Assembly: GCA_016926265.1 (NCBI GenBank)
Contig: JAFGOW010000064.1
Coordinates: forward strand, 1 to 40,913
DNA from: Deltaproteobacteria bacterium
Lineage (GTDB): Bacteria > Desulfobacterota > Desulfuromonadia > Desulfuromonadales > JAAYDE01
Reading direction: 5' to 3'
Length of the DNA: 40,913 nucleotides
Of this stretch, positions 124 through 40,572 are shown in pieces. A model generated the notes under the pieces. The model did no database searches. It was not told where the DNA came from and saw only the letters and a list, made by a program, of their open reading frames with translations. Positions within the stretch are counted from its first letter, which is position 1. Each line of letters opens with the position of its first letter. The position numbers were made by a program, and so were the translations under genes.

Positions 124-154
124 TTTATTTACCTTGGTTTCGGGGAGGCTTGAC

Positions 155-1930
155 GTGATTGGAGGCAGGAAGGGCGCATTTCTCTTGGCGTTGTTGCTGT
201 ACACCCTGGGGATGCCGTGGCTCGGGCTCTCCGAGGCCGGGGCCTGGTGGGACAACAACTGGCAATACCGTCAGAAGATCCGCTGCGACACCGCGGCCGC
301 CGGGGTCGACGAGACCCTCAACGAGGTGCCGGTGCTGGTGCGGCTGCACATGGGGAACTTCGATTTCGCCAAGGCCAAGGCCGACGGCTCGGACCTGCGC
401 TTCGTCGATCTCGACGACCAGACGCCGCTCAAATTCCATATCGAAAAGTACGTTCCGGCCGACGCCATCGCCCTGGTCTGGGTCAAGGTGCCGCGCCTGA
501 CCGGAAAATCGACGGTCAACGCCTTCTGGCTCTATTCCGGCAACCAGGTGGCGGCGGCGGCCCAGGATTCCGGAGGCAGCTTCGACATCAACCAGCTCGT
601 CGCCCTCCATCTCAACGAGACCGAGGGCTTCCCCCGCGACGCCACGGCCTACGCCAACCACGTCGGTGATTTTTCCGGCGGCATGGGGCTCCCCTCGATC
701 ATCGGCAACGGCCTGACCCTGCGGGGAATGGGGGACCGACTGGTCATCCCCAAAAAGCCGTCCCTCGATTTCAAGAACGGCCTGACCTTCTCGGCCTGGG
801 TGCGCATCGCCCAGGAGCAGGTCCAGGCCCGGCTGCTGTCGTGGTCCGACGAGCGCAGCGGCATCATCTTCGGCATCGAAGGGACGACCCCCTTCGCCCG
901 GATCTTCAACGGCAACCTGGAGTCGAGTCTGGTGGGGCTGTCGGGACTGACGCCCGGGGTCTGGCATCACCTCGCCTTGACCGCGGCGCCCAACGGCAAG
1001 CTGAAGATCTTTATCGACGGCCAGGAAAACAACTCCACCGACATGGCGCTGGCCGTCCCGACCCCGCCCGGGGACGCCATTCTGGGCGCCGGGCCGGAGG
1101 GGACCTTCGAATTCGTCGGGGATCTCGACGAGGTGCGCCTGGCGGGGATCGCGCGATCCGCCGCCTGGCTGCGCGCCGAGGTCCAGTCCCAGGGGCCGGA
1201 CGGGCGGCTGCTCAGTCACGATCCGGTAGAGGAAGGGGGCGGCGGGGCCTCTTCCTTCTATTTGCTGACCGTGGCCAGCAACATCACCGTAGACGGCTGG
1301 GTCATCATCGGCCTGCTGTTGCTGCTGGGAGGCGTGAGCTGGATGATCTTCCTGGTCAAGGCCTATTTCTTCCGCCTCATGATCCGGGAAAATCGGGTTT
1401 TCATGACCTCCTTCAAGGGGTTGACCGATCTGACAGGCCTCGACGAGCGGGAGGAGGAATTCGAAAACTCCCCCCTGTTCCGTATCTACCGGGAGGGGTG
1501 TTATGACCTGCGCCACTGGCTCGAAAAGCATCGGCACCTGGAAAACCCGAAGATTTCCCCCAAGGCCCTCAACATCTTCAGGACCACGGTGGAGAAGGGG
1601 TTCATGGAGGAAAACCGCCGCATCAACAGCGGCCTGGTGGTGCTGACCATGGCCATCAGCGGCGGCCCCTTCCTCGGCCTGCTCGGCACCGTGTGGGGGG
1701 TCATGAACACCTTTGCGGCCCTGGCCGTGGCCGGCGAGGCCAACATCATGGCCATCGCCCCCGGGGTCGCCTCGGCCCTGGCGACCACCGTCTTCGGCCT
1801 GATCGTGGCGATCCCGGCCCTGTTCGGCTACAACTACCTGGCCGGAAGGGTCAAGATCCTGGCCGCGGACATGGGGATCTTCGTCGATAACTTCGTCAAC
1901 GTCACCGACCAGGTCTACGGAGGGGATTGA
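155..1930 (+). CDS. DUF2341/LamG-like ectodomain fused to MotA/TolQ/ExbB proton channel
   Basis: N-terminal signal, WWDNNWQYRQKI (DUF2341-like), LamG-like LTFSAWVRI...WHHLALT, C-terminal ExbB/TolQ segment (GPFLGLLGTVWGVMNTF...IAPGVASALATTVFGLIVAIPALFGYNYL). ORF track begins at 134; GTG 155 is a likely start. Confidence 0.85.
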   Translation: MIGGRKGAFLLALLLYTLGMPWLGLSEAGAWWDNNWQYRQKIRCDTAAAGVDETLNEVPVLVRLHMGNFDFAKAKADGSDLRFVDLDDQTPLKFHIEKYVPADAIALVWVKVPRLTGKSTVNAFWLYSGNQVAAAAQDSGGSFDINQLVALHLNETEGFPRDATAYANHVGDFSGGMGLPSIIGNGLTLRGMGDRLVIPKKPSLDFKNGLTFSAWVRIAQEQVQARLLSWSDERSGIIFGIEGTTPFARIFNGNLESSLVGLSGLTPGVWHHLALTAAPNGKLKIFIDGQENNSTDMALAVPTPPGDAILGAGPEGTFEFVGDLDEVRLAGIARSAAWLRAEVQSQGPDGRLLSHDPVEEGGGGASSFYLLTVASNITVDGWVIIGLLLLLGGVSWMIFLVKAYFFRLMIRENRVFMTSFKGLTDLTGLDEREEEFENSPLFRIYREGCYDLRHWLEKHRHLENPKISPKALNIFRTTVEKGFMEENRRINSGLVVLTMAISGGPFLGLLGTVWGVMNTFAALAVAGEANIMAIAPGVASALATTVFGLIVAIPALFGYNYLAGRVKILAADMGIFVDNFVNVTDQVYGGD

Positions 1931-6321: not shown

Positions 6322-6977
6322 GTGAAAAAGTTTGTGGCGGCTGCCATCGGGGTGGTTTTGGGAACGCTTCCGCTGAACGGGGCTCAGGCCTGCCTGATTC
6401 TGACGGAAACCTTTTTAGGGACGGCCTGTGACGGGCAGTATTTTTTTCTCGACGAGGATTACACGACCGCTTATGGGTTCAATCTGACGGCGGGTGGGGG
6501 GGGGCAGCTTTATACACTGATTACGGCGGGCTGAATCAGAAGCTGCAAGGGGGGCCTTTCTCCCCCACGTGCGATGTGAGTTCCTACAATCCGAACACTC
6601 AGTCGATTGCAGCCGGGAAACTGGTTTTCAGTTTTTCCGACAGCGATGGGAATCGGGAAGAGGCCGAGATCAGAACCAGTGTTTACGATGGAGATCAGGT
6701 TCTGTTCGATCAGATTTTTCATCTCACGAAAAGGGACTCCCAATATACCTTGCTCCTGGACCTTGACGGCGTGGCTTTGGAAAACCTGCAGGACGGGCAA
6801 TTTCTGACCTTGGTTCTGGCTCCCGCGGGCCAATACGGCTGGGTGAATGATTTTAAGGTCGACCAGGTCAGCCTGCGGGCCGTGGTCGTCCCTCTGCCGG
6901 GGGCCTTTCTGCTGCTTGGCTCCTGGTTGCTCGGGATCTTTGGTCTCAGGGTTTCCGGCGTTTTTCAGGGTCGCTGA
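6322..6977 (+). pseudogene. VPLPG-CTERM (exosortase-sorted) secreted protein, frameshifted at a 9-G tract
   Basis: Frame 1 from GTG 6322 (RBS aaggagg) stops at 6534; frame 3 after the G-run reads GALYTDYGGLNQKLQGGPFSPTCDVSSYNPNTQS... through VPLPGAFLLLGSWLLGIFGLRVSGVFQGR*. One added G rejoins the frames. Confidence 0.8.
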
Positions 6978-8143
6978 AGGGATTCGTCCCGTTCCTGCGC
7001 TTTCGCCAGAGCCGGGCCGTCAGGGCGGCTGGCGGGGATCTGGTCCTCTCCCATCAGGTCGGGCCAGTTGAAGAACTGGAAGGTCCGATCGTTGGACATG
7101 GCCACGAACAGGCCGTGGGGAAATTTGCCGTTCAATCCCTGGGGAATGACCTCGCAGCCGTCGGTCCGACGGGCCGTGGTGTAGACGGTTTTCAGCAACT
7201 GGTGGCGGTGGGGTTGGTTTTGCTCCCCTTCGCGGCGGTAGATGTGAAAACGGTTCCCCTGCTGGTCCGAAATCACCAGGTATCCTCGTTTCGCGTCAAG
7301 GGGATAGATGGCGATTCCTTCCCGTTCGCTAACAAACTCTCTCTCTCCGAACCGGGCCAGTTCCCCGGCCCCCTTGAAGGGATCCGCATGATATTTGCGG
7401 ATGCAGTTCCTTTCATCGGAATAGTAGACAAAACCGAGGGCATCGTCGACGGCGACGGCCTCGATCCCCTTGCCGCCGCTGAAGGCGCCGAATTTTCTTG
7501 CCAGGACGCCCCGGACTCCGCCGTGGCCGTCCTCCTCCAGCCGGTATTGCCACAGGTAGCCCTCGGCAGGCCCCTTTTTCCGGCTGACGATGGCGAAAAC
7601 CGCTCCATCCTCCGGACGTCTGTAGAGGGCGATCCCCATCGGGGAGCGGAAATCATGGGAAGGCTCCCCCCGGAAAACCCGGATCCCGCCGTTGTCGATG
7701 GCAGTCATCTCCGGCAATCGGTAGATCCGCAGTTTTTCCGTTATGACCTCGGTGACGACGGCGATGTCGATTTTTTCGCCGCCCAGGGAGAAGCCGTATT
7801 CGACATCAACGTTGTTCGGCTTCCGGAGGTGGCGCACGACCTTTTCCTCAATGATTTTTCCCTCCAGATCGTAGACGTAGAGTGCGCCGTTGCGGTGTTT
7901 GTCTGTTCCCAGGATCAGACTTTTTTCCGGGTGTTCGGCATTGAACCAGATGGCGGGGTCGTCGGTGTCGTAGCGGCTTCTTTCGGAGACCAGGACCGGG
8001 GCCACGACTGGATTCGGCGGCATGGCTGGGAGATCGATTCCGGCGCCGGATGCCGTCGTTCCTCCCAGCAGCAGGAGCAGGCCGGTCCGAAGCCAGGGGA
8101 CGCTGCCAGGGACCGCGATTCTAAAAAGGGATTTTTCGGCCAT
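6965..8143 (-). CDS. Beta-propeller 3-phytase
   Basis: DTDDPAIWFN, ILGTDKHRNGALYVYDLEGK, NNVDVEYGF, GCEVIPQG, FPHGLFVAMSND; RBS aggaggag before the ATG on the minus strand. Confidence 0.88.
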   Translation of the reverse strand: MAEKSLFRIAVPGSVPWLRTGLLLLLGGTTASGAGIDLPAMPPNPVVAPVLVSERSRYDTDDPAIWFNAEHPEKSLILGTDKHRNGALYVYDLEGKIIEEKVVRHLRKPNNVDVEYGFSLGGEKIDIAVVTEVITEKLRIYRLPEMTAIDNGGIRVFRGEPSHDFRSPMGIALYRRPEDGAVFAIVSRKKGPAEGYLWQYRLEEDGHGGVRGVLARKFGAFSGGKGIEAVAVDDALGFVYYSDERNCIRKYHADPFKGAGELARFGEREFVSEREGIAIYPLDAKRGYLVISDQQGNRFHIYRREGEQNQPHRHQLLKTVYTTARRTDGCEVIPQGLNGKFPHGLFVAMSNDRTFQFFNWPDLMGEDQIPASRPDGPALAKAQERDESLQRP

Positions 8144-8361
8144 ATCTCCTCCTGTACTCTTGAAATGGCCATTTCGGGAAAAATGGCTTCCTCGGATTGT
8201 GAATAGATTTCAAGGATTAAGAAGGAGGCCTGTTAACCCGGTATTCATAAAAGATTAGGATTCGGATAAAAGGCTGTGGGGCGGTCCAGATAAGGCATCA
8301 AGGCGGAAATTCCGGAAGGGGAAGGGAAACCGGCGAGCGGGAAAACCGATTTCGGTTCTGT

Positions 8362-21408: not shown

Positions 21409-21885
21409 ATGCTGCTTTTAAACCAGTCGCTGTTTCGCCAGCTGGCCGCGCAGGCCGCTGCCCATCCCCGTCTCCGCCAGCACCTCAACCTCCACCGGAG
21501 CTACGAAGATCCCTGCCAGCGGCTGCTCATCGCCATGCAGCCCGATTCCTACATCCGCCCCCATCGCCACCGGACCGACCCCAAGCCGGAGTGCTTTATC
21601 GCGCTTCGGGGGAGGTTCGCCCTGCTGATCTTCGATAACCATGGGGAGATCGTGGACCGGTTCTTTCTCGGTTCGGGGGAGGACGCCGCCGGCGCGGATC
21701 TCCCGGTCGGGATCTGGCACTCCGTCGTCTGCCTGGAGCCGGATTCAGTCTTTTTCGAAACCAAACCCGGCCCGTTCCATCCCGATCAAAAAAAGGATCC
21801 GGCCCCCTGGGCCCCGGAAGAAGGGAGCCCCGAGGCCGCCGCCTATCTCCAGACCCTCCTTTCCCAGGTCCTAAAACAAATCTAA
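21409..21885 (+). CDS. wbuC: WbuC-family cupin-fold protein
   Basis: RQHLNLHRSYEDPCQRLLIAMQPDSYIRPHRHRTDPKPECFIALRGRFALLIFDNHG cupin motif; follows fnlC as in fnl-wbu loci. Confidence 0.85.
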   Translation: MLLLNQSLFRQLAAQAAAHPRLRQHLNLHRSYEDPCQRLLIAMQPDSYIRPHRHRTDPKPECFIALRGRFALLIFDNHGEIVDRFFLGSGEDAAGADLPVGIWHSVVCLEPDSVFFETKPGPFHPDQKKDPAPWAPEEGSPEAAAYLQTLLSQVLKQI

Positions 21886-22007
21886 CCGATCGGTAAAGAT
21901 TCCCTAACCCGGACTGTCTAACCTCCCTCTCCGAATTCCCCTGAATCCCCCTTCCCCGCCCCCCGTTCGTCAGGGCGCGCTGCCACTATCAGGAAAAAGA
22001 GTTGTTC

Positions 22008-23570
22008 ATGACACCGCCGATTTCCATTGACCGGGGAAAGCTCCCTTTGACCGTCTGGGCGCCGGCCCTGTTCCTCGCAGTCCTCTTTGCCGGGCTCTTC
22101 TGGCCGACCTTGTCCCACATGGCGGCCCGCTGGCCCGAGGACGACTTCAGCTACTGCTACCTGATCCCGCCGCTGATTGTCTACCTGGTCTGGGAACAGC
22201 GGCAGCCCTTGGCCCGGATCCGGCCGCAACCTTCCTTAACCGGCCTGATCCCGTTCTCCCTGGGGCTCCTGCTGTTCTGGCTGGGGGAGTTGGGGGGGGA
22301 ATTTTTCACCCTTTACCTTTCCGCGTGGCTGGTTCTCGTCGGCCTCTGCTGGACCCTGCTGGGCCGGACCTTCATCCGCCTGCTGTGGTTTCCGCTGGCA
22401 ATGATCCCGGCCATGTTCCCGGTGCCGAATGTCATCGCCGCCAATCTTTCCCTGCGTCTCAAGCTGATCTCCTCGGACCTGGGCGTCCGGCTGATGCATC
22501 TGGCGGGGATGAGCGCCTACCGGGAAGGGAATATCATCGACATCGGGTTCACCCAGCTTCAGGTGGTCGATGCCTGCGGCGGGCTGCGCTATTTTTTCCC
22601 CATCGTGCTGCTGGCGATGCTGCTCGGCTATCTCTACCGGTTGAACTGGTGGCGCTGGGGGGCGGTGATCGCTTCCGCGCCGCCGATCGTGGTCCTGGCC
22701 AATGGCCTGCGGATCGCCGGAACCGGCTATCTCTTTCCCTTTTTCGGACCCCGGGTGGCGGAGGGCTTTTTCCACGACTTCGCCGGCTGGTTTTCCTTCA
22801 TGGCGGCCCTGGCAATGCTGGTGCCCGAGATTCTGCTGCTGAGGATGATCCCCTCGCGAATTCCCCCGATTGCGGCTAAGCCCACGGAAGAACCGGAGCA
22901 GATCCCGGTGGTTTCCGCTTCCGCCAAAGGGCTGTTTCTGGTCGTGGCCATGATTCTGGGGGTGAATCTCGGGCTCGCCTCGGGGGTCGATTTTCGGGAA
23001 CGGGTTCCGGCCAAACAGCCTCTGGCCGGATTTCCGGTCAAGCTGGCCGGCTGGCAGGGGGAAAACGGGACCCTCGACCGGAAGATTCTGGACGAACTCG
23101 ACCTCAGCGACTACCTGATGCGGGACTACCGGGACGGTTCGGGCCGGCCGGTCAATGTCTATGTCGCCTATTACGAAAGCCAGCGCAAAGGGGAATCGAT
23201 CCATTCCCCCTCCTCCTGTCTGCCGGGAGGTGGCTGGCGATTTCAGGAGTCCGGCGCCCGGATCATCGCGGGGGAAGGCCTTCCGGAGGGTTTCCGGGTG
23301 CAGCGGGCCCTGATCTCCAAGGGGGGGCAAACCCAGCTGTCTTTCTACTGGTTCATGATGCGCGGCCGGGTTTTGACCGATCTGTATCAGGTCAAGGCGG
23401 CCAATTTCTGGGATGCCCTGACCAAACAGCGCAGCGACGGGGCCCTGGTGCGTTTGATCACCCCGGTCTTTCCCGGCGAGAAGGTGGCTGACGCCGAGGC
23501 GCGGCTGCTGAATCTGACCTTTTTGCTGATGCCGGTACTGGAGGAGTTCATTCCGGGGAAAGAAATGTGA
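22008..23570 (+). CDS. xrtD: Exosortase (XrtD-type, VPLPA-CTERM-specific family) fused to EpsI domain
   Basis: Polytopic; VVDACGGLRYF (Cys), VVLANGLRIAGTGYL (Arg), FFHDFAGWFSF (His) exosortase motifs; C-terminal EpsI-like YYESQRKGESIHSPSSCLPGGGW. Confidence 0.88.
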   Translation: MTPPISIDRGKLPLTVWAPALFLAVLFAGLFWPTLSHMAARWPEDDFSYCYLIPPLIVYLVWEQRQPLARIRPQPSLTGLIPFSLGLLLFWLGELGGEFFTLYLSAWLVLVGLCWTLLGRTFIRLLWFPLAMIPAMFPVPNVIAANLSLRLKLISSDLGVRLMHLAGMSAYREGNIIDIGFTQLQVVDACGGLRYFFPIVLLAMLLGYLYRLNWWRWGAVIASAPPIVVLANGLRIAGTGYLFPFFGPRVAEGFFHDFAGWFSFMAALAMLVPEILLLRMIPSRIPPIAAKPTEEPEQIPVVSASAKGLFLVVAMILGVNLGLASGVDFRERVPAKQPLAGFPVKLAGWQGENGTLDRKILDELDLSDYLMRDYRDGSGRPVNVYVAYYESQRKGESIHSPSSCLPGGGWRFQESGARIIAGEGLPEGFRVQRALISKGGQTQLSFYWFMMRGRVLTDLYQVKAANFWDALTKQRSDGALVRLITPVFPGEKVADAEARLLNLTFLLMPVLEEFIPGKEM

Positions 23571-25217: not shown

Positions 25218-25309
25218 TAACCTAAATCGGATTTAACATTTTTCTGACAAATCTCCTATCTACTCCGCAGCCGGGGGAAAAAAGTTTCACTCGCACCTGG
25301 AGGTCCGCC

Positions 25310-27706
25310 ATGAAATATCAGCGTTTCCTTGTCGCCCTGTTCATCCCCGTGACGCTCTTTTTCGGATGCAGCGGCCCCGACGAGAAGAAGGCCAAATTCT
25401 TCGAGAAGGGGCAGACCCTGTTTGCCCAGAAGGATTACGTCAAGGCCGCTCTCGAATTCAAGAACGCCATTCAGATCGATCCCAAATACGCCGAGGCCTA
25501 TCTCATGCTCGGCAAGGTGGGTCTGGCGGAAAAGGATCCGGTCAACGCCTACAAATACTACCTGCAGGCGGTGGAGCTGGCTCCGGACTGCTGGGAAGCG
25601 CACCTGGGGATCGCCCGGATCATGCTCGGCGCCCGTCAGCCGGATCAGGCCATGGAAAAAGCTGATCTGGTCCTGGCCCAACAGCCTGAAAACAGGGAAG
25701 CCTTGTTGCTGAAAGGGGCGGTCTGGGTTGCAAAGAAGGAATTCGGCCAGGCCGTTTCCCAGCTCGAAGCTCTCATGAAGAAGGGCGGGACGAGCCCCGA
25801 TGCGGTTTTGCTTCTGGCCACCGCTTACCTCAACCAGGGGGAGCTCTCTGCGGCCGAGGAAACCCTCGGGAAGGGGGCCGTGGCCAACCCCGAATCGGTC
25901 GCCATCCGGGTGGCGCTGGCGGAACGGGCCAGGCTCCGGAACCGGATCGGATCTTCCCTGGAATGGATCAATGAGGCCCGGCGTATCGAGCCGGGGAATG
26001 AACAACTGATTTTTCTCCTGGCCCGGGTCAATTGGGAGGACGGGCGGCTCGATGAGGCGGGAAAAATCCTGGACAATTTCACCGCCGATCCCAAAGGGGA
26101 AGGGGACGCCAGGTATCTTGGGACCGCCCAGTTCTGCCTGGCGATGAAAGACGCCGATCGGGCCGAAAAGTACCTCCGAAAGGGTCTGGAGCGCCACCCC
26201 GACAGTCTGAAACTCCGCCTGGCCCTCGCGGACCTGGCGGCCAATTCCGGAAACCGTCGCGAAGAAGCGGTCGCGCTGCTGCGGGAATGCGTGGCCCTCG
26301 GCGAGAAGCGGGGAGCGCCGGAGGCGGTTCAGGCCCACAACGGCCTGGCGCGGATCTTTCTGGGACGCAACGATCCGGCCGGAGCCGAGGAGCAGGTGTC
26401 CGCGGTGCTCAAGGACAATCCCGCCAACGTGGACGCCCATTTCATCAAGGGGCGGATTCTGCTGGGGCGCCGCCAGGGGAGCGAGGCGGTGGCCGAATTC
26501 CGGGCCGTGATCCAGGAGGACCCCAAATCGGTTCCGGCCCGCCTCGGGCTCTCGGAGGCCCATCTCCTCAACGGCGAGGTCAACCTGGCCCGGGATGTTC
26601 TGGAGAAAGGGGTCAAGGATCTGCCGGAGGCCGAGGAACTGAAGCTGGCTCTGGCCCGTTTTTATGCCCGCTCCGGAAACCGTTCCGGCGCCGAGGGGCT
26701 TTACCGGGCCCTGCTCGAAAAGAAACCCGAGGCCGACGGCGTGAGGGCCGAGCTGGGCGATCTGCTCGCCGCCGGAGGGGAAGATGCCCGGGCCGAAGAA
26801 ATCTATCGGGGGCTGATCGAAGAACTGCCGCGATCCCCCTTGGGCTACATGAAGCTGGCCGTCTTCTATCAGGAACGGGGAAAGCTTCCCCAGAGCGTGG
26901 CGGTGCTGGAGCAGGGGACCGCCTCCGTTCCGGACTCGGATCTGCTGGCCGGTTCCCTGCTGCGCTCCTATCTGCAGCAGAAAAAAACCGGCAAGGCGGA
27001 ACAATGGGCCCGGGAGCGGCTGCGGCTGAACCCGGCCGGCGCCTTCAACCACAACCTGCTCGGCGAGGCGCTGCTGGCCAAAAAGGACCGCGGCTGCGCC
27101 GAAGCCTCCTTCCGCCAGGCCATTGAAGCGGCTCCCAAATGGCCCCTGCCGTGGCGCAATCTGGTGGGTTCCCGGCTCGCCGCCAAGGATATCGACGGCG
27201 CTATTGCCGGTCTCAGGGGAGCTCTCGCCGCCAATCCGGACAACATCGAGTTCAGCCGCCTGCTGGGCCAGATCCTGGTGCGCGAAAACCGCCACGGCGA
27301 GGCGGTCCGGGTTTATCGCGAGGTTCTCGACCGTCACCCCGATTCCGGCGAGGTGGCCAATGACCTGGCCTATCTGCTGGTGATGCAGGCGGCCAGGAAC
27401 GAGGAGTTCGCGGAAGCGCAAATCTGGGCGGAAAAGGCCAACAATCTGCGCCCCGGCGATCCGGCGGTGATGGATACTCTCGGCTGGCTCCATTTCCGCA
27501 AGGGAGAATTCCAGCGGGCCGCGGATCTGCTCCAGAAGGCCCAGGAAAAGGCCGGGCAGGTGGCGGTCATCAATTTCCATCTCGGCATGGCTCTGCACCG
27601 GCTGGGGCAAAACGACCGGGCCAGGGTCTTCCTGGAAAAATCCTTGACGGCCGCCGATGGCTTCGAGGGGCGGAAAGAGGCTGAAGAGGTTTTGGGCCGC
27701 ATGTAG
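25310..27706 (+). CDS. PrsT-like TPR-repeat lipoprotein of exosortase/EPS systems
   Basis: Lipobox-like VTLFFGC; TPR repeats throughout (798 aa). Confidence 0.8.
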   Translation: MKYQRFLVALFIPVTLFFGCSGPDEKKAKFFEKGQTLFAQKDYVKAALEFKNAIQIDPKYAEAYLMLGKVGLAEKDPVNAYKYYLQAVELAPDCWEAHLGIARIMLGARQPDQAMEKADLVLAQQPENREALLLKGAVWVAKKEFGQAVSQLEALMKKGGTSPDAVLLLATAYLNQGELSAAEETLGKGAVANPESVAIRVALAERARLRNRIGSSLEWINEARRIEPGNEQLIFLLARVNWEDGRLDEAGKILDNFTADPKGEGDARYLGTAQFCLAMKDADRAEKYLRKGLERHPDSLKLRLALADLAANSGNRREEAVALLRECVALGEKRGAPEAVQAHNGLARIFLGRNDPAGAEEQVSAVLKDNPANVDAHFIKGRILLGRRQGSEAVAEFRAVIQEDPKSVPARLGLSEAHLLNGEVNLARDVLEKGVKDLPEAEELKLALARFYARSGNRSGAEGLYRALLEKKPEADGVRAELGDLLAAGGEDARAEEIYRGLIEELPRSPLGYMKLAVFYQERGKLPQSVAVLEQGTASVPDSDLLAGSLLRSYLQQKKTGKAEQWARERLRLNPAGAFNHNLLGEALLAKKDRGCAEASFRQAIEAAPKWPLPWRNLVGSRLAAKDIDGAIAGLRGALAANPDNIEFSRLLGQILVRENRHGEAVRVYREVLDRHPDSGEVANDLAYLLVMQAARNEEFAEAQIWAEKANNLRPGDPAVMDTLGWLHFRKGEFQRAADLLQKAQEKAGQVAVINFHLGMALHRLGQNDRARVFLEKSLTAADGFEGRKEAEEVLGRM

Positions 27707-33380: not shown

Positions 33381-34139
33381 ATGATGAAAAAGAAATTGTC
33401 CCTGATCCTGGCGGCGGTTGCCTGCGTCTTCAGCTTCGCCGGCCAGGCCGCGGCGGCTTTCCAGGAGGAATCGACCCTGGTCCGCGTTGTCTATAGCAGG
33501 GTAGAAGAGGTTAATCACGCCACCGATCTCGGCGTTCTGGCCAATACCCTGACCCCGGCCACGGCGACCATCGCCCTGACCGCCAACCCCTTTGACCTCT
33601 CCATGTTCCCCAACTCGACCCTGGCCGACCTCCAGGTGGCCTACTTCGCCCTGGACAACTCCGTCAGCAACAACAAGAAGATCTGGGTCTCCGGGCCGGA
33701 GAGCGGCATGACCTACACCGGCGGCGCCACCATGCAGAATGTCGCCACCTCCATCCAGAACAACCTGCTCAACAGCTACGAGACGCTGAGCTACGGCGCG
33801 AGCTACCTCCTGAGTATCGGCTACAATGGAATGAGCGTAAACTACGAACAGTATGCTCTCGATTCTTTCTTCAGCACCATCCCGGGCATTGACACCACAG
33901 AAGCCAACCTGGCGGATCTGGCCACCGTCGGCTACGTCGAGCAGACCCTCTACTACATGGATCCGGCCAGCGAATTCACCAGAATGAGCGGCGTCGTGGC
34001 GAGCACCGGCGTCGTGATCCGCACCCTGGTTGACGGCACCACCGTGATCAACCCCTCCGCAGTCCCTCTTCCAGGCGCCTTCTGGCTGCTCGGCTCCGGC
34101 CTCGTGGGCCTGATCGGCATCCGCCGCAAAAACGGTTAA
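33381..34139 (+). CDS. VPLPG-CTERM exosortase-sorted secreted protein
   Basis: Signal peptide; C-terminal VPLPGAFWLLGSGLVGLIGIRRKNG (motif + TM + basic tail); RBS aggaggag. Confidence 0.85.
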   Translation: MMKKKLSLILAAVACVFSFAGQAAAAFQEESTLVRVVYSRVEEVNHATDLGVLANTLTPATATIALTANPFDLSMFPNSTLADLQVAYFALDNSVSNNKKIWVSGPESGMTYTGGATMQNVATSIQNNLLNSYETLSYGASYLLSIGYNGMSVNYEQYALDSFFSTIPGIDTTEANLADLATVGYVEQTLYYMDPASEFTRMSGVVASTGVVIRTLVDGTTVINPSAVPLPGAFWLLGSGLVGLIGIRRKNG

Positions 34140-34175
34140 TTCAAACAACCTTTCATATTCTGAGGAGAAAAGACC

Positions 34176-35603
34176 ATGTTAAAGAAAGCACTCGGCACCG
34201 CGGCCATGGGCGTTTTGGCCCTGACCGGCACCGCCCTGGCCGACATCGACATCAACATCTACGGCGCCTCGGCCCAACACCTGTTCTGGAATGACGCCGC
34301 CGACAACTTCCTGACCCAGCAGGGCTGCACCGGCGTGGCCCAGAGCAGCGTCGACAGCAAGAACGGCATCACCCGTGCCGACTGCACCGCCACCTACGGC
34401 GACTACGTCAACATCCGCTACACCTCCAAGGCCTCCTGGGACGGCATTTACGCGGCCCACAACTTCAGCGCCGCAGCCGTGACCCCGAACCCGGCCCCGG
34501 CTTTTGGCAACTGCGCGCCCGGCACCAACGGCGTGCCCGCCGACCGCTACGACTACCGGGCCATGGCCGACTCTCTCAACGCCACCACCACCTCCTGCCA
34601 GAAGGTCCACCTCGGGGCCTCGGACATGAAAGCCCCCTTTTTCACCCAGAAATCCTACGGCCAGAAGTACGGCCACCTGAAAGGGGGCTGGATCGAGCAG
34701 GAATTCTTCGGCATCCAGAACACCACCGCCCCCTATGAACCGCTGGCGGTCCCCTTCGGCTTCTTCGCCAACAACAACCTCGGCATCTACCGCTGCACCA
34801 ACGCCGGCGTCATGGAAGGCGCCATGTGCAGCCAGAACAGCGAGTGCGACACCTACAGCGACGTCGCCGGGGTCAAGACCTCCAACAACGACGGCGTCTG
34901 CGGCGCCAAGACGGCCCTCGACAGCATCAGTCGCCAGATGGCGGTCGCCCTCTTCTCCGGCGACATCTACTACTGGGACGACCTCGGCGCCGGCTTCGAC
35001 GTTGACGGCAACCCCGCCACCTCGGACGCGGTCACTGTCTGCTTCCGCCACGCTGGTTCCGGCACCCACGCCACCCTCGACTGGGCCGTGATGCAGGGCA
35101 ACGCCAGTCGGAAAATTCCTTGGGGGAAAACCCTTGCTACCGAAGAGATGAGCGCCCAGACCATGGGGATCCAGGATGAGTGGTACGGCGCCACCGCCGA
35201 ATTTCCCCGCTTCTTCTTCAACGACGGCTCCTCCGACATGATGAAATGCATCCGGGACAACAACGGCGCCATCGGCTACGCCGACGCCGACCAGCTCGAG
35301 GCTTCGCCCGCGTACGCGACCTCGGTCTATGCCCTCAACTACAACGGCGAAAAGCCGGACCGCTACAACATCCGCAACGGCGTCTACACCTTCTGGTCCC
35401 TCAACCGCCTCTACAAGAACGCCGACATCACCGCGACCCAGGATACCATCATCACCGACCTGATCGCCTTCGCCGAGAACCCGGCCAACATCCCTTCCAG
35501 CAAGATGGCTTTCTGGGCCACCTCCGGCGAGATGAAACGGGCCAAGGCCGAGCCCAACGTCTATCCCGAAGTGACGGGTCAGGCCTATCCCCAGCGCCCC
35601 TGA
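34176..35603 (+). CDS. PstS-like secreted substrate-binding (phosphate-binding-type) protein
   Basis: Signal peptide; DIDINIYGASAQ; HAGSGTHATLDW; NDGSSDMMKCIRDNNGAIGYADADQL typical of PstS-like type 2 periplasmic-binding fold. Confidence 0.65.
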   Translation: MLKKALGTAAMGVLALTGTALADIDINIYGASAQHLFWNDAADNFLTQQGCTGVAQSSVDSKNGITRADCTATYGDYVNIRYTSKASWDGIYAAHNFSAAAVTPNPAPAFGNCAPGTNGVPADRYDYRAMADSLNATTTSCQKVHLGASDMKAPFFTQKSYGQKYGHLKGGWIEQEFFGIQNTTAPYEPLAVPFGFFANNNLGIYRCTNAGVMEGAMCSQNSECDTYSDVAGVKTSNNDGVCGAKTALDSISRQMAVALFSGDIYYWDDLGAGFDVDGNPATSDAVTVCFRHAGSGTHATLDWAVMQGNASRKIPWGKTLATEEMSAQTMGIQDEWYGATAEFPRFFFNDGSSDMMKCIRDNNGAIGYADADQLEASPAYATSVYALNYNGEKPDRYNIRNGVYTFWSLNRLYKNADITATQDTIITDLIAFAENPANIPSSKMAFWATSGEMKRAKAEPNVYPEVTGQAYPQRP

Positions 35604-35676: not shown

Positions 35677-35692
35677 CTAACCGGAAGCTAAC
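35677..35692 (+). promoter_or_regulatory. Direct repeat CTAAC-N6-CTAAC (11-bp period), Pho-box-like
   Basis: ctaac cggaag ctaac between the terminator and the VPLPG-CTERM ORF. Confidence 0.45.
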
Positions 35693-35717
35693 CTGGTGTT
35701 CTTATCTTATCGGAGAA

Positions 35718-36374
35718 ATGAATGGCGGTTTTCCCGGCACGGAGCCCATGAAACTGAAACGGCAATGGATCATAGCCTCCGCGGTGGCGGCCTCGGTCTT
35801 CCTGGCGGCGACGGCGGGGTATGTGGCGCCGCTGCTCTCTCCCGGCCGCCTTGCGGGGCGGGGAGCGCTTCCGGTGGGGGCGGGGGAAGGGTCCGGCCTC
35901 GCCGGGCCCCCCTACTACCGGCTCGCCGCCTCTTTCCTGAAGGAGGAGACGCTCCCCCTGGGCGCTTTCCTGACGGCGAAGGGACCCGTTTTTTCCCACG
36001 GTTTGCCTCCCGAGCGGCCGGGGAGGGTGGCGGCTTCCGGTCCCGGCTGCTGGTCCGGTCCCGGAGAGCGCCGGCAACGCCACCCGGCGTCTTGGCCCCA
36101 AGGCCCTTCGACCCTATCCGATGGCGGAGGAGGGCATTGGGACCGCGATTTTCCACCGGTTGCGTCCCCCGGCGAACCGCCTTCTTCCGGAGGCGGGGGG
36201 AAAGCGCCGGGCTGGATTTACGTCTACTTCCCCGCGCCGACCGACCCCGGCGGGCCCGGAACCTGGCCCCCCGTTCATCCCGGCCCGGTGCCGCTCCCCG
36301 GCGCCTGGCTGCTTCTGGCCAGCGGCCTGGCAGGGCTTGGGCTCGGGAAAAAGCTTTTGCGCAAGAGAGGCTGA
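35718..36374 (+). CDS. Gly/Pro-rich VPLPG-CTERM exosortase-sorted protein
   Basis: N-terminal TM/signal IIASAVAASVFLAATAGYVAP; low-complexity middle; C-terminal VPLPGAWLLLASGLAGLGLGKKLLRKRG fixes the reading frame. Confidence 0.7.
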   Translation: MNGGFPGTEPMKLKRQWIIASAVAASVFLAATAGYVAPLLSPGRLAGRGALPVGAGEGSGLAGPPYYRLAASFLKEETLPLGAFLTAKGPVFSHGLPPERPGRVAASGPGCWSGPGERRQRHPASWPQGPSTLSDGGGGHWDRDFPPVASPGEPPSSGGGGKAPGWIYVYFPAPTDPGGPGTWPPVHPGPVPLPGAWLLLASGLAGLGLGKKLLRKRG

Positions 36375-36470
36375 TCCCGCCCCGGCCTGCCTTCTTTCCT
36401 CCGAAATTTTTCAACCACTGCCCGTTTCGTGTCCGACTCGGCCCGTACCGATTCCCCTTCTCATCGAAAT

Positions 36471-36518
36471 CTAGCAAAAACCTATTTTTCTTCTAGCCCG
36501 AGTCCGTTTTGCTCTAGC
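36471..36518 (+). promoter_or_regulatory. Phased direct repeats CTAGC-N6-CTATT-N6-CTAGC...CTAGC upstream of alkaline phosphatase
   Basis: Repeat starts at 36471, 36482, 36493 and 36514 (spacing 11, 11, 21). Confidence 0.5.
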
Positions 36519-36688
36519 AGGCAGATCGAGGAGCTTCCCATGGGGGGAGGGTTCTGGAGTTATGGAAACTGGAGCGTAGCGGGAAAGGAGGTTGGGGGGG
36601 GCGGAAAAAATGTCCAGAAACGCGTGCCATGGAATGCCCAATGGTGAAGACAACCATGAAATTCGAAAACAGACGGGAGGAAAGCATA

Positions 36689-38235
36689 ATGAGATGGAAT
36701 GAACGAATCACCCTGATAGCGGCTGCCGCCTTTGTCCTGGCAGCCACGACGGCCTTCGCCGGCCAGCCGAAATATGTGTTCTTCTTCCTCGGGGACGGCA
36801 TGGCCAACGCCCAGATTCAGGCCACCGAGGCCTATCTGACCACCGTCAACGGCGGCTCGGCCACCCTGGCCGAAGATCTGCTGAAGCCCGAAAACCGGCT
36901 CAACATGACCCAGTTGCCGGTCCAGGGAATGCAGACCACCTACGACGCCTTTGCCCTGATGACCGATTCCGCCTCCTCGGCGACGGCCTTCGCTTCCGGC
37001 ACCAAGACCAAAAGCGGCGTCATCAATATGGACCCCACCGGAACCACCGCCTACAAGAGCGTCGCCGAACTCGCCCACGAGCGCGGCATGAAGGTCGGCG
37101 TCATCTCCAGCGTCTCCCTGGATCACGCCACCCCGGCGGCCTACTACGCCAGCGTCCCCAACCGCGGCCAGATGAACAGCATCGCCACCCAGCTCGCCAA
37201 CTCGGACTACGAATTCTTCGGCGGCGGCGGCCTGGTGCGGCCGACGGGAGCCTCGGCCCCCGATACCAACAACAACGTCTGGGACCTGCTGACCGCGAAC
37301 GGCTACGAAGTTCGCAACGACCGGGAATCGATCCTGGCGCTCAAGGAAGAACCCCGTGACAAGGTGGTCTGCATCAATCCGTGGCTGCAGGACTCCTCGG
37401 CCATGCCCTATGACATCGACCGTCCTGCTACCAACCTGTCGCTGGCCGAAATGACCGATGTCGCCATCTCGGTTCTCCAGAAACAGGAGCGGGGCAAGCG
37501 CTGCAGGAGAAATTGCAAGAATGAGGGCTTTTTCCTGATGGTTGAAGGGGGCAAGATCGACTGGGCCTGTCACGCCAACGACGCCAAGGCAACGATCGGC
37601 GACATGCTCGATTTCGACAATGCCATCGGCGTCGCCCTCGATTTCTACAAAAAGCACCCGCATGAAACCCTGATCGTGGTCACTGGCGACCACGAAACCG
37701 GCGGTATGACCATCGGGCATGCCACCACCGGCTACACCGCCTACTACGATCGCCTTCTCGACCAGACCAACAGCTTCACCTATTTCGGCCAGAATCAGTG
37801 GCGGGACCACAAAGCCGCCACCGCCGCCGGCGTTTGCGGCAGCCATATCGGAACCGCGAACCTGCCCGCCGATGGGGCGATGCAGAATCTGATGGAGAAT
37901 GTTTTCGGCCTCTCCTGGAGCGAGCTCAACGCCTACCAGCAGGAAAAGCTCGAAGACGCCTACGACAAATCGATGTGCGGCTCCAACGGCAACAGCAGCG
38001 CGGAAAACAGCTATCTCTACGGCGGCTATGAACCGATCGTGGTGACCATCACCCATATCCTCAACGAGCGGGCCAGCATCGGCTGGACCTCCTATGCCAC
38101 ACCGGGGTGCCGGTTCCCCTTTATGCCGTCGGTTCGAAAGCCGAACTTTTCAGCGGCTTCTACGACAACACCGACATCGCCAAGAAGATCGCCCGGGCCA
38201 TGGGCGTCCGCCAGGATCTGCCGGTTACCAAGTAA
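36689..38235 (+). pseudogene. Alkaline phosphatase (PhoA family), frameshifted near C-terminus
   Basis: FFLGDGMA, LMTDSASSATAFASGTKT, GDHETGG; frame 2 is lost near 38097 and the expected tail HTGVPVPLYAVGSKAELFSGFYDNTDIAKKIARAMG continues in frame 1 to TAA 38233-38235; one missing base. Confidence 0.88.
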
Positions 38236-38269
38236 CGAATGCGGCTCCGGGTCGGGATTTAAACAGCGG

Positions 38270-38311
38270 AACGGCGCCTCTCTCCCAGGGGGCGCCGTTT
38301 CCCATTTTTTT
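38270..38311 (+). terminator. Rho-independent terminator after alkaline phosphatase
   Basis: aacggcgcc ... ggcgccgtt stem then cccaTTTTTTT. Confidence 0.8.
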
Positions 38312-38331
38312 ACAGGACAAGGGGAGTGGCC

Positions 38332-39537
38332 ATGTTCCCACAAAAGCGCGAGTGGCTGTTTATGCTGATGATCGCCGTCGTTTCCCTGGGCCTGGGGTTC
38401 GTCGATCTGGCGCAGATCCCCCAGGCCCCGAACGGTTTGCACAGCCGCGGCCTGGTCACCTCGGTGGATAACAGCCAGGTGCGCGTCAATCTGATCGTCA
38501 AGACCGAGGAGCAGTTTTTGACCGTTGAGCTTCTGGACGGGCCTCACCAGGGGGAATCCCTGGCCCTGATCAACACGCTTACCGGCAAGATGGAATTCGA
38601 CGAATTCTATGAAACCGGTGAAGTGGTGCTGGTGGAATACGGCCTCGGCCAGGACGGGCGACCCAAAAACGGCGTCGCCCGGGGCCACTACCGGCTGGGG
38701 CTCCAGATGGCACTGATCGCCCTGTTCGGGGGGCTGCTGCTGGTGGTAGCGGGAACCACCGGGCTCAAGGCCATGCTCTCCTTCGTCTTCGTGGCCATGG
38801 TGCTGTGGAAGCTCTATTTCCCCCTGGTGCTGATGGGTTATCCGCCGCTGGCCACCGGCCTGGCCGTGGTGGCGCTGCTGACCGCGGTGATCACCTTTTC
38901 CGTCGGCGGCATGAACCGGCGCGGCCTGGCCACCTTCGCCGGTTCCATGATGGGGGTGCTGCTGACCTGCGGCCTCGCGGTCTGGTTCGCCCACGCGTTC
39001 CGGCTTCACGGCGCGGTGCGCCCCTTCGCCGAGTCGCTGCTCTATTCCGGGCATTACGACATCCGGCTGACGGATATCTTCATCGCCAGCATCTTCATCG
39101 CCTCTTCCGGCGCCGTCATGGATCTGGCCATGGATATCGCGGCGAGCATGGACGAGATCAAGGCCAAGCATCCGGGAATAGATCTCATCGAACATGTCCG
39201 CTCCGGCCTGCGGGTCGGGCGCGCCGTGATCGGGACCATGACCACAACCCTGCTTTTGGCCTATTCGAGCAGCCACATCACCATGTTTCTGCTGTTCATC
39301 GCCAAGGGGCTCCCCGCCGCCAATATCCTGAACGCCCCCTTCGTGGCCGCCGAGGTGCTGAATATCCTGGTCGGCAGTTTCGGGCTGGTCACCGTGGCCC
39401 CCTTCACCGCCCTGGTGGCCGGGATGCTTTACCGGTTCGAGCCGGGAGCGAGCCGGGCGAAATCCCAAACCGGGTCGGAAATCGCGGCCGCGAGTTTGAA
39501 GTTTTTCAGCGCCGGCTTTCTCCGCCGCCTTTCCTAG
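38332..39537 (+). CDS. YibE/F-like integral membrane protein
   Basis: Polytopic; YGLGQDGRPKNGVARGHYRL and IASIFIASSGAVMDLAMDIAASMDEI pattern; RBS ggggag before ATG 38332. Confidence 0.8.
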   Translation: MFPQKREWLFMLMIAVVSLGLGFVDLAQIPQAPNGLHSRGLVTSVDNSQVRVNLIVKTEEQFLTVELLDGPHQGESLALINTLTGKMEFDEFYETGEVVLVEYGLGQDGRPKNGVARGHYRLGLQMALIALFGGLLLVVAGTTGLKAMLSFVFVAMVLWKLYFPLVLMGYPPLATGLAVVALLTAVITFSVGGMNRRGLATFAGSMMGVLLTCGLAVWFAHAFRLHGAVRPFAESLLYSGHYDIRLTDIFIASIFIASSGAVMDLAMDIAASMDEIKAKHPGIDLIEHVRSGLRVGRAVIGTMTTTLLLAYSSSHITMFLLFIAKGLPAANILNAPFVAAEVLNILVGSFGLVTVAPFTALVAGMLYRFEPGASRAKSQTGSEIAAASLKFFSAGFLRRLS

Positions 39538-39580
39538 CCGATGGGCCGGGGACCGGCTAATGCCGACTGCCGGCCAGCCC

Positions 39581-39607
39581 CTAACGGAAATCTAGCCGAT
39601 TCCTAAC
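39581..39607 (+). promoter_or_regulatory. Three phased direct repeats CTAAC-N6-CTAGC-N6-CTAAC (11-bp period) upstream of gspC
   Basis: ctaac ggaaat ctagc cgattc ctaac; a TTATAG -10-like element follows at 39631-39636. Confidence 0.55.
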
Positions 39608-39642
39608 ATCGCTCTTGCCCCGATTTTTTCTTATAGGCGCGG

Positions 39643-40572
39643 ATGCCATGGGGAAAAATGATAGTCAAAGCCGGGAATGCCCATCTGCGATTGTTCAACC
39701 TGGGGTTGGCGGCGGTCTCCCTTTTGGCCCTGACCTATCTCGGTTCGTCGGCGGCCGGGTATTTCCGGGACGAAAACCCGGCACGCGGCAACCCCGTCTT
39801 CTCCGCCCCACCGGCGGTTTCGCGCCGGGCGGAGCTCCGGGACTATCAGGTCATCATCCGCGGTAATCCCTTCGATCCCGAGAGCCGCAACGACGGAAAA
39901 GAGGATAGCCGCCCCCCGGTTCCGGATGCCGAGACGGCCGCGCCATTGCAACGGGCCGACGTGATTCTGCTCGGCACCGTGGTCGTCGACGGCGGGCCTT
40001 TCGCCATGATCCGGACCGGCGGCAAATCGGAAATCTTCCGGCTCGATGAGAACGTCCCCGGCGTCGGCCGGGTGAAAAGGATCGAGCGCAAGCAGGTCAC
40101 CCTGAGCGGAGAAGGGGGGCGGCCATGGCTGCTGGAGCTGGCCGAATCTTCCGGCCCAGGCTCCACCCCAATGGAACCCCTCTCCGACGGTCCGGGGATC
40201 CTCCTCCCCAAGCCGGAAGCCCCCAATCCGGAAATCACCCCTCTGGGCGCCAACCGCTTTCGCGTCTCCCGGCAGGCGAGCGAAAAGGCCGCGGCCGAGT
40301 TCGGGCAGCTTGTCAAGGAGGCGGTCGGCGGCGGGCGGCCCATTAAAGCCTGGGGTCCCAAGGGCTTCATCCTGCGGCGGCTGCGCCCTTCATCGGTTTT
40401 GCGCCAGCTCGGCTTGCGCCCCGGGGATCTCCTGAAGGAGATCAACGGCATGGCCGTCGACGGCCCGGAGCAGTGGGAGCCGGCCTCCCGGCAGTTGGCC
40501 GGGGCGAGGAAGGTGGCCTTCGGCCTGCTTCGGAGGGGGACGCGGCTGACCATCGAATACGAGGTGGAATAA
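39643..40572 (+). CDS. gspC: Type II secretion system protein C (GspC) with PDZ domain
   Basis: N-terminal TM, DYQVIIRGNPFDP, HR-domain VILLGTVVVDGGPFAMI, C-terminal PDZ LGLRPGDLLKEINGMAVDGPEQ. Confidence 0.88.
   Translation: MPWGKMIVKAGNAHLRLFNLGLAAVSLLALTYLGSSAAGYFRDENPARGNPVFSAPPAVSRRAELRDYQVIIRGNPFDPESRNDGKEDSRPPVPDAETAAPLQRADVILLGTVVVDGGPFAMIRTGGKSEIFRLDENVPGVGRVKRIERKQVTLSGEGGRPWLLELAESSGPGSTPMEPLSDGPGILLPKPEAPNPEITPLGANRFRVSRQASEKAAAEFGQLVKEAVGGGRPIKAWGPKGFILRRLRPSSVLRQLGLRPGDLLKEINGMAVDGPEQWEPASRQLAGARKVAFGLLRRGTRLTIEYEVE

Follow-up and report, generated by a model that had tools for sequence, protein, structure and literature searches.

The contig studied here raises the question of whether one phosphate-responsive regulator governs an exosortase system, a type II secretion system (T2SS) and phosphate-releasing enzymes encoded side by side. 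The window, that is the whole stretch of 40,913 nucleotides analysed, is contig JAFGOW010000064.1 of a Desulfuromonadales bacterium whose assembly (GCA_016926265.1; 2.77 Mb in 258 contigs) is an incomplete draft, 85% complete. According to the original prediction, CTAAC/CTAGC direct repeats with an 11-bp period, starting at 35677, 36471 and 39581, are PhoB/PhoP-type boxes preceding an exosortase substrate, an alkaline phosphatase and a T2SS operon. The genes concerned are the following:

6965 to 8143, minus strand: phytase (PF02333, clear match)
22002 to 23570, plus strand: XrtD exosortase fused to EpsI (TIGR04152, 533.8 bits, cut-off 400)
25310 to 27706, plus strand: PrsT, TPR protein of PEP-CTERM/EPS systems (TIGR02917, 336.6 bits, cut-off 312)
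35748 to 36374, plus strand: small Pro/Gly-rich protein with a C-terminal VPLPGAWLLLASGLAGLG...KKLLRKRG tail
36689 to 38235, plus strand: PhoA-type alkaline phosphatase (PF00245, clear match)
39643 to 40572, plus strand: gspC of a type II secretion system (Pfam model passed narrowly)

The identity first given to the alkaline phosphatase is borne out by its Pfam match; its frame is broken near 38100, with the C-terminal part in another frame from 38094 onward, which may be a sequencing error or a real frameshift. Both this enzyme and the phytase carry apparent signal peptides, as judged by eye. The gene prsT is the first ahead of the polysaccharide export genes, and gspC is followed by gspD, within which the contig ends, so that the T2SS operon is truncated. 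The C-terminus of the small Pro/Gly-rich protein, VPLPGAWLLLASGLAGLGLGKKLLRKRG, is shaped by eye like a VPLPA-CTERM signal, and an alternative start codon at 35718 is possible for its gene. The position and shape of this signal agree with the exosortase substrate announced by the original prediction, but the score against the PEP-CTERM model (18.0 bits, E 0.003) is below the cut-off of 20.7; substrate status is therefore only probable. Elsewhere in the window (134-1930), DUF2341 and laminin-G-like domains are joined to a MotA/TolQ/ExbB proton-channel domain.

The three repeat clusters of the original prediction are all intergenic and oriented like the gene that follows. In the second one (36471-36518) the repeats are present, but the additional CTAGC at 36514 is out of phase, being 21 bp rather than 22 away from the copy before it. 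A matrix from whose training all sites of the window had been kept out was scanned over the window and selected stretches, the rest of the genome being searched by patterns, and the score of a three-unit CTAACA array was compared at periods 7 to 15. The top scores clustered at period 11 only, in six gaps and always in the sense of the gene downstream: at 39581 before gspC, at 25222 before prsT, at 35677 before the small VPLP-type protein gene, at 21882 before xrtD, at 8258 (minus strand) before the phytase gene and at 36471 before the alkaline phosphatase gene. Three of these arrays, before xrtD, before prsT and, more weakly, before the phytase gene, come in addition to those first reported:

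8232 to 8280, minus strand: CTAAT-TGAAT-TTAAC, weak Pho-box-like array before the phytase gene
21871 to 21908, plus strand: CTAAA-CTAAC-GTAAA-CTAAC array before xrtD
25222 to 25248, plus strand: CTAAA-TTAAC-CTGAC array before prsT, recurring in one relative
35677 to 35692, plus strand: CTAAC-N6-CTAAC, predicted Pho box upstream of the small VPLP-type protein gene
36460 to 36497, plus strand: CTCAT-CTAGC-CTATT-CTAGC in 11-bp steps, degenerate array before the alkaline phosphatase gene
39581 to 39618, plus strand: CTAAC-CTAGC-CTAAC-(CTTGC), before gspC, strongest array of the window

The repeats thus stand upstream of genes, with an 11-bp period and in coding orientation, as expected of Pho boxes. 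The core of the gspC array, CTAAC-N6-CTAGC-N6-CTAAC, spans 39581-39607, and the -10 of this promoter fits only relative to the degenerate fourth repeat. The box at 35677 is located after the terminator of the PstS-like gene and is followed by a -10-like TATCTT (35703-35708) at the spacing expected for Pho promoters. Upstream of the alkaline phosphatase gene, the CTAGC-N6-CTATT-N6-CTAGC core (36471-36497) is the weakest of the three sites first reported, and no good -10 was found at the canonical spacing. The array of xrtD includes a fifth CTAAC at 21918, out of phase, with a poorly fitting -10, while that of prsT is followed at roughly fitting spacing by a -10-like TCTACT (25259-25264). The phytase and alkaline phosphatase arrays are the weakest of the six.

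Short gaps are richer in A+T than genes and the alkaline phosphatase array is degenerate, so that chance or compositional repeats had to be considered. We give this explanation hardly any credence and reject it, given that both shuffles and genome-wide counts contradict it. The window contains three exact CTARC-N6-CTARC matches when dinucleotide shuffles predict 0.04, none of 100 shuffled windows reached three, and five triple arrays were found for 0.12 expected by chance, with preference for period 11 only. Eleven of the 14 plus-strand CTAAC/CTAGC of the window fall within four short clusters at gene starts (21882-21922, 35677-35692, 36471-36518 and 39581-39607). A shuffled window gave about 0.2 array matches at a score of at least 13, and the 787 kb of 53 XrtD loci from other organisms, collected with an alignment-based search, gave 0.52 array matches per 41 kb at a score of at least 14, against 6 in the window.

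The genome-wide distribution of the motif also speaks against a background repeat, one of the ways in which the original prediction could have failed. The exact pattern occurs only seven times. Four of these occurrences are outside the window and immediately precede pstS and phoB, which share one phoB-phoR-pst-phoU cluster on contig C1, and ppk on contig C87, where two matches overlap. Allowing one mismatch raised the number of places to 19. Triple arrays with at most two mismatches were limited to five, upstream of ppk, of a glycosyltransferase gene followed by ppk2, of pstS, of gspC and of xrtD; with a third mismatch, arrays also turned up at the phoB promoter, at prsT, at an acyltransferase gene of C87 in divergent orientation and at three unrelated places.

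Several further sites were observed along the way. On contig C87 (L009, 8861-13391), divergent Pho-box arrays lie between the glycosyltransferase gene and the acyltransferase/GNAT gene, and these could possibly be lipid remodelling genes of phosphate starvation. On contig C156 (L094, 441-3015), TTAAC-N6-CTAAC is found 230 bp upstream of another VPLPA-CTERM-like protein gene, divergent from a calcineurin-like phosphoesterase, which might be a further Pho target, single-mismatch sites including chance matches. On contig C1 (L008, 6235-8782), a TTAAT-CCAAC-CTAAA array (score 15.4) precedes by about 90 bp an 819-codon gene adjoining phoU, whose product had no Pfam match.

An exact-pattern search of 19 other genomes of the order showed the same association. 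The pattern is rare in these relatives (0-4 per genome, against 19-85 for the reversed-pattern control), and 31 of its 43 matches immediately precede pstS, phoB, ppk, pit-type permease or Na/Pi cotransporter genes, the downstream proteins being read by eye. The matches away from pho genes number about 12 for roughly 60 Mb, a rate that predicts 0.01 per 41-kb window. In the aligned sites, CTAACA occupies positions 0 and 11 and is preceded by a weak unit around -11; the TATAnT-like -10 begins 10-11 bp after the second repeat. Head-to-tail repeats with a -10 at such spacing are the geometry of PhoB-activated promoters. As the motif marks pho genes in the genome and in the order, with a -10 placed 10-11 bp downstream, the reading of the 11-bp repeats as PhoB/PhoP boxes is supported, and the CTAACA repeat is the predicted Pho box of this order. 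A small helix-hairpin-helix-like protein gene has an exact box upstream in two relatives (L028 and L039), and stands divergent to ppk in the genome studied here (L009, 5384-5902).

A PhoB/PhoR pair is encoded within the boxed phoB cluster, and the boxes of the window have phosphatase and phytase genes in their neighbourhood, both observations speaking for PhoB. Similarly spaced direct repeats are targets of many OmpR-family regulators, another of which could recognize the repeats instead; PhoB is assigned by association and, although the PhoB model is the best-scoring one for the protein, its 240 bits are under the cut-off of 296. We consider such a substitute very unlikely, since outside the window the motif marks phoB itself along with pstS and ppk, and relatives also have it at pit and Na/Pi transporter genes. 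The repeats are thus best read, with a probability of about 0.85, as PhoB boxes predicted from sequence to switch on xrtD, prsT/EPS export, the VPLP-type protein, the alkaline phosphatase, gspC-gspD and probably the phytase. PhoB binding and phosphate-dependent transcription of these units would be expected. Under low phosphate, PhoR would phosphorylate PhoB, and PhoB~P would bind the head-to-tail CTAAC half-sites 11 bp apart, filling the tandem sites. Bound PhoB would stand in for the -35 element and recruit sigma-70 RNA polymerase to the -10 located 10-11 bp downstream. In addition to phoB, pstS and ppk, it would activate xrtD, the prsT/EPS-export operon and the VPLP-type surface protein gene, as well as the alkaline phosphatase gene, gspC-gspD and probably the phytase gene. 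The outcome would be the secretion of phosphate-releasing enzymes and the remodelling of the cell surface by exosortase/EPS parts.

Conservation of the individual boxes is contrasted. None of the 29 gspC orthologues inspected has a paired repeat, and none of the exact matches listed in the order-wide scan is near gspC; a Pho control of the T2SS shared across the order is thus rejected. Similarly, no Pho box was found at xrtD in the 53 other XrtD loci, and Pho control as a general feature of xrtD is also rejected. Conversely, the prsT promoter of Desulfuromonadaceae bacterium GWC2_58_13 (L264), the only genome in which this array recurs, displays CCAAC-CTAAA-CTAAC-TTTAC in the same wecA-prsT gap (score 18.4, against at most 8.7 at other periods), and the alkaline phosphatase homologue of another relative (G102, L100) has a strong box (score 24.7). 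The comparison of orthologous promoters, expected by the original prediction to share the boxes, is mostly negative, with none at gspC and xrtD; the exceptions are prsT in L264 and the alkaline phosphatase homologue of G102. Boxes on the alkaline phosphatase and prsT genes recur, and those of xrtD and gspC are lineage-specific as far as sampled, the wiring of the T2SS and exosortase being considered as such because gspC orthologues and other xrtD genes are without box. A genus-mate (G001) gave no gspC match and only an exosortase fragment of 30% identity. In the GspC tree, the protein of the window forms a very long branch, which makes the tree uninformative on inheritance versus transfer.

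These results leave room for a restricted alternative, in which only the gspC and small VPLP sites, and perhaps that of the alkaline phosphatase, are true Pho boxes, the xrtD, prsT and phytase arrays being non-functional and the exosortase enzyme outside the regulon. The 2 to 5 mismatches of these three arrays to the CTAAC triple agree with it, as do the other xrtD promoters devoid of array. We nevertheless regard it as rather unlikely: triple arrays with at most three mismatches occur at only about a dozen independent places of the genome, most of the others being pho genes, and the prsT array is kept in L264. PhoB control of all six units, the preferred reading, can be extended to a single PhoB-controlled phosphate-scavenging island comprising XrtD, PrsT/EPS export, at least one substrate, the T2SS, the alkaline phosphatase and the phytase, a proposal to which we give slightly better than even odds. 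The unconserved gspC and xrtD boxes, the poor -10s at the alkaline phosphatase, gspC and xrtD promoters, the weak phosphatase and phytase arrays and the lack of a box at the operon of the PstS-like protein weigh against PhoB control of the six units.

The PstS-like neighbour invoked in favour of phosphate starvation is present (34176-35603), but only distantly PstS-like, and its operon has no box. The VPLPA-CTERM-like and PstS-like genes (33381-35603) form a rare conserved pair, retrieved in a few scattered unrelated genomes of the phylum. A c-di-GMP-I riboswitch precedes this pair in L166 and L170, with L167 and L169 similar by eye. Upstream of the pair of the window, neither a Pho box nor a c-di-GMP riboswitch was found, and control by either element is rejected there.

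The predicted regulon resembles known Pho regulons in its 11-bp head-to-tail repeats, its -10 about 10 bp downstream and its phoB, pstS, ppk and alkaline phosphatase targets, to which exosortase, EPS export and T2SS genes would be added. The Hxc system of P. aeruginosa is a T2SS with the LapA phosphatase, tied to phosphate starvation. The half-site CTAAC(A) differs from the CTGTCAT of E. coli (CTGTCAT-N4 repeats) and from the (c/t)GT(n)AC of the D. vulgaris PhoB box (PMC3333781). In Caulobacter, phosphate starvation has been linked to a T2SS with ElpS (PMC2996285). As in these two secretion systems, a phosphatase or phosphate-starvation protein adjoins the T2SS genes, the phosphate link being here predicted; by likeness to them, the alkaline phosphatase and phytase may be T2SS cargo. 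The likeness to Hxc, a dedicated T2SS standing beside a housekeeping one, is no more than an analogy. No exosortase link is known for either system, and the box here belongs to the one gspC retrieved from the genome, a count drawn from an 85% complete draft in which the operon of the window is cut at the contig end. The genome's other secretins comprise one of MSHA type and two that stay under every NCBIfam cut-off, and no array with a score of at least 13 was found in the stretches carrying their clusters.

The succession of wecA, prsT, export, OMP and tyrosine-kinase genes after xrtD is shared with other XrtD loci. Over the stretches covered, none of the 53 examined has a Pho box at xrtD, or an alkaline phosphatase, gspC or PstS-like gene, whereas the present one has all of these, the box being predicted. 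Pho boxes jointly on exosortase, polysaccharide export and secretion genes were found in no relative or paper examined. In D. vulgaris, PEP-CTERM genes were assigned to the regulator DVUA0057 (PMC3333781), and exosortase and phosphate starvation occur together in three papers, being unrelated in PMC2907700. The literature searched, with most subscription papers outside its reach, contained no paper on exosortase together with PhoB, none on PEP-CTERM together with phosphate limitation and no published Pho-box consensus for this order; the novelty claimed for an exosortase substrate in a Pho regulon stands within that literature.

For the order, CTAACA-N5-CTAACA-N9-TATAnT, with a loosely conserved -10 part, represents a usable Pho-box consensus. 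If the proposed control is true, phosphate starvation would simultaneously remodel the extracellular matrix and trigger the secretion of phosphatases. The inducers of exosortase systems are poorly known, and a Pho-controlled exosortase would make low phosphate a simple inducing condition for studying the function of their surface proteins.
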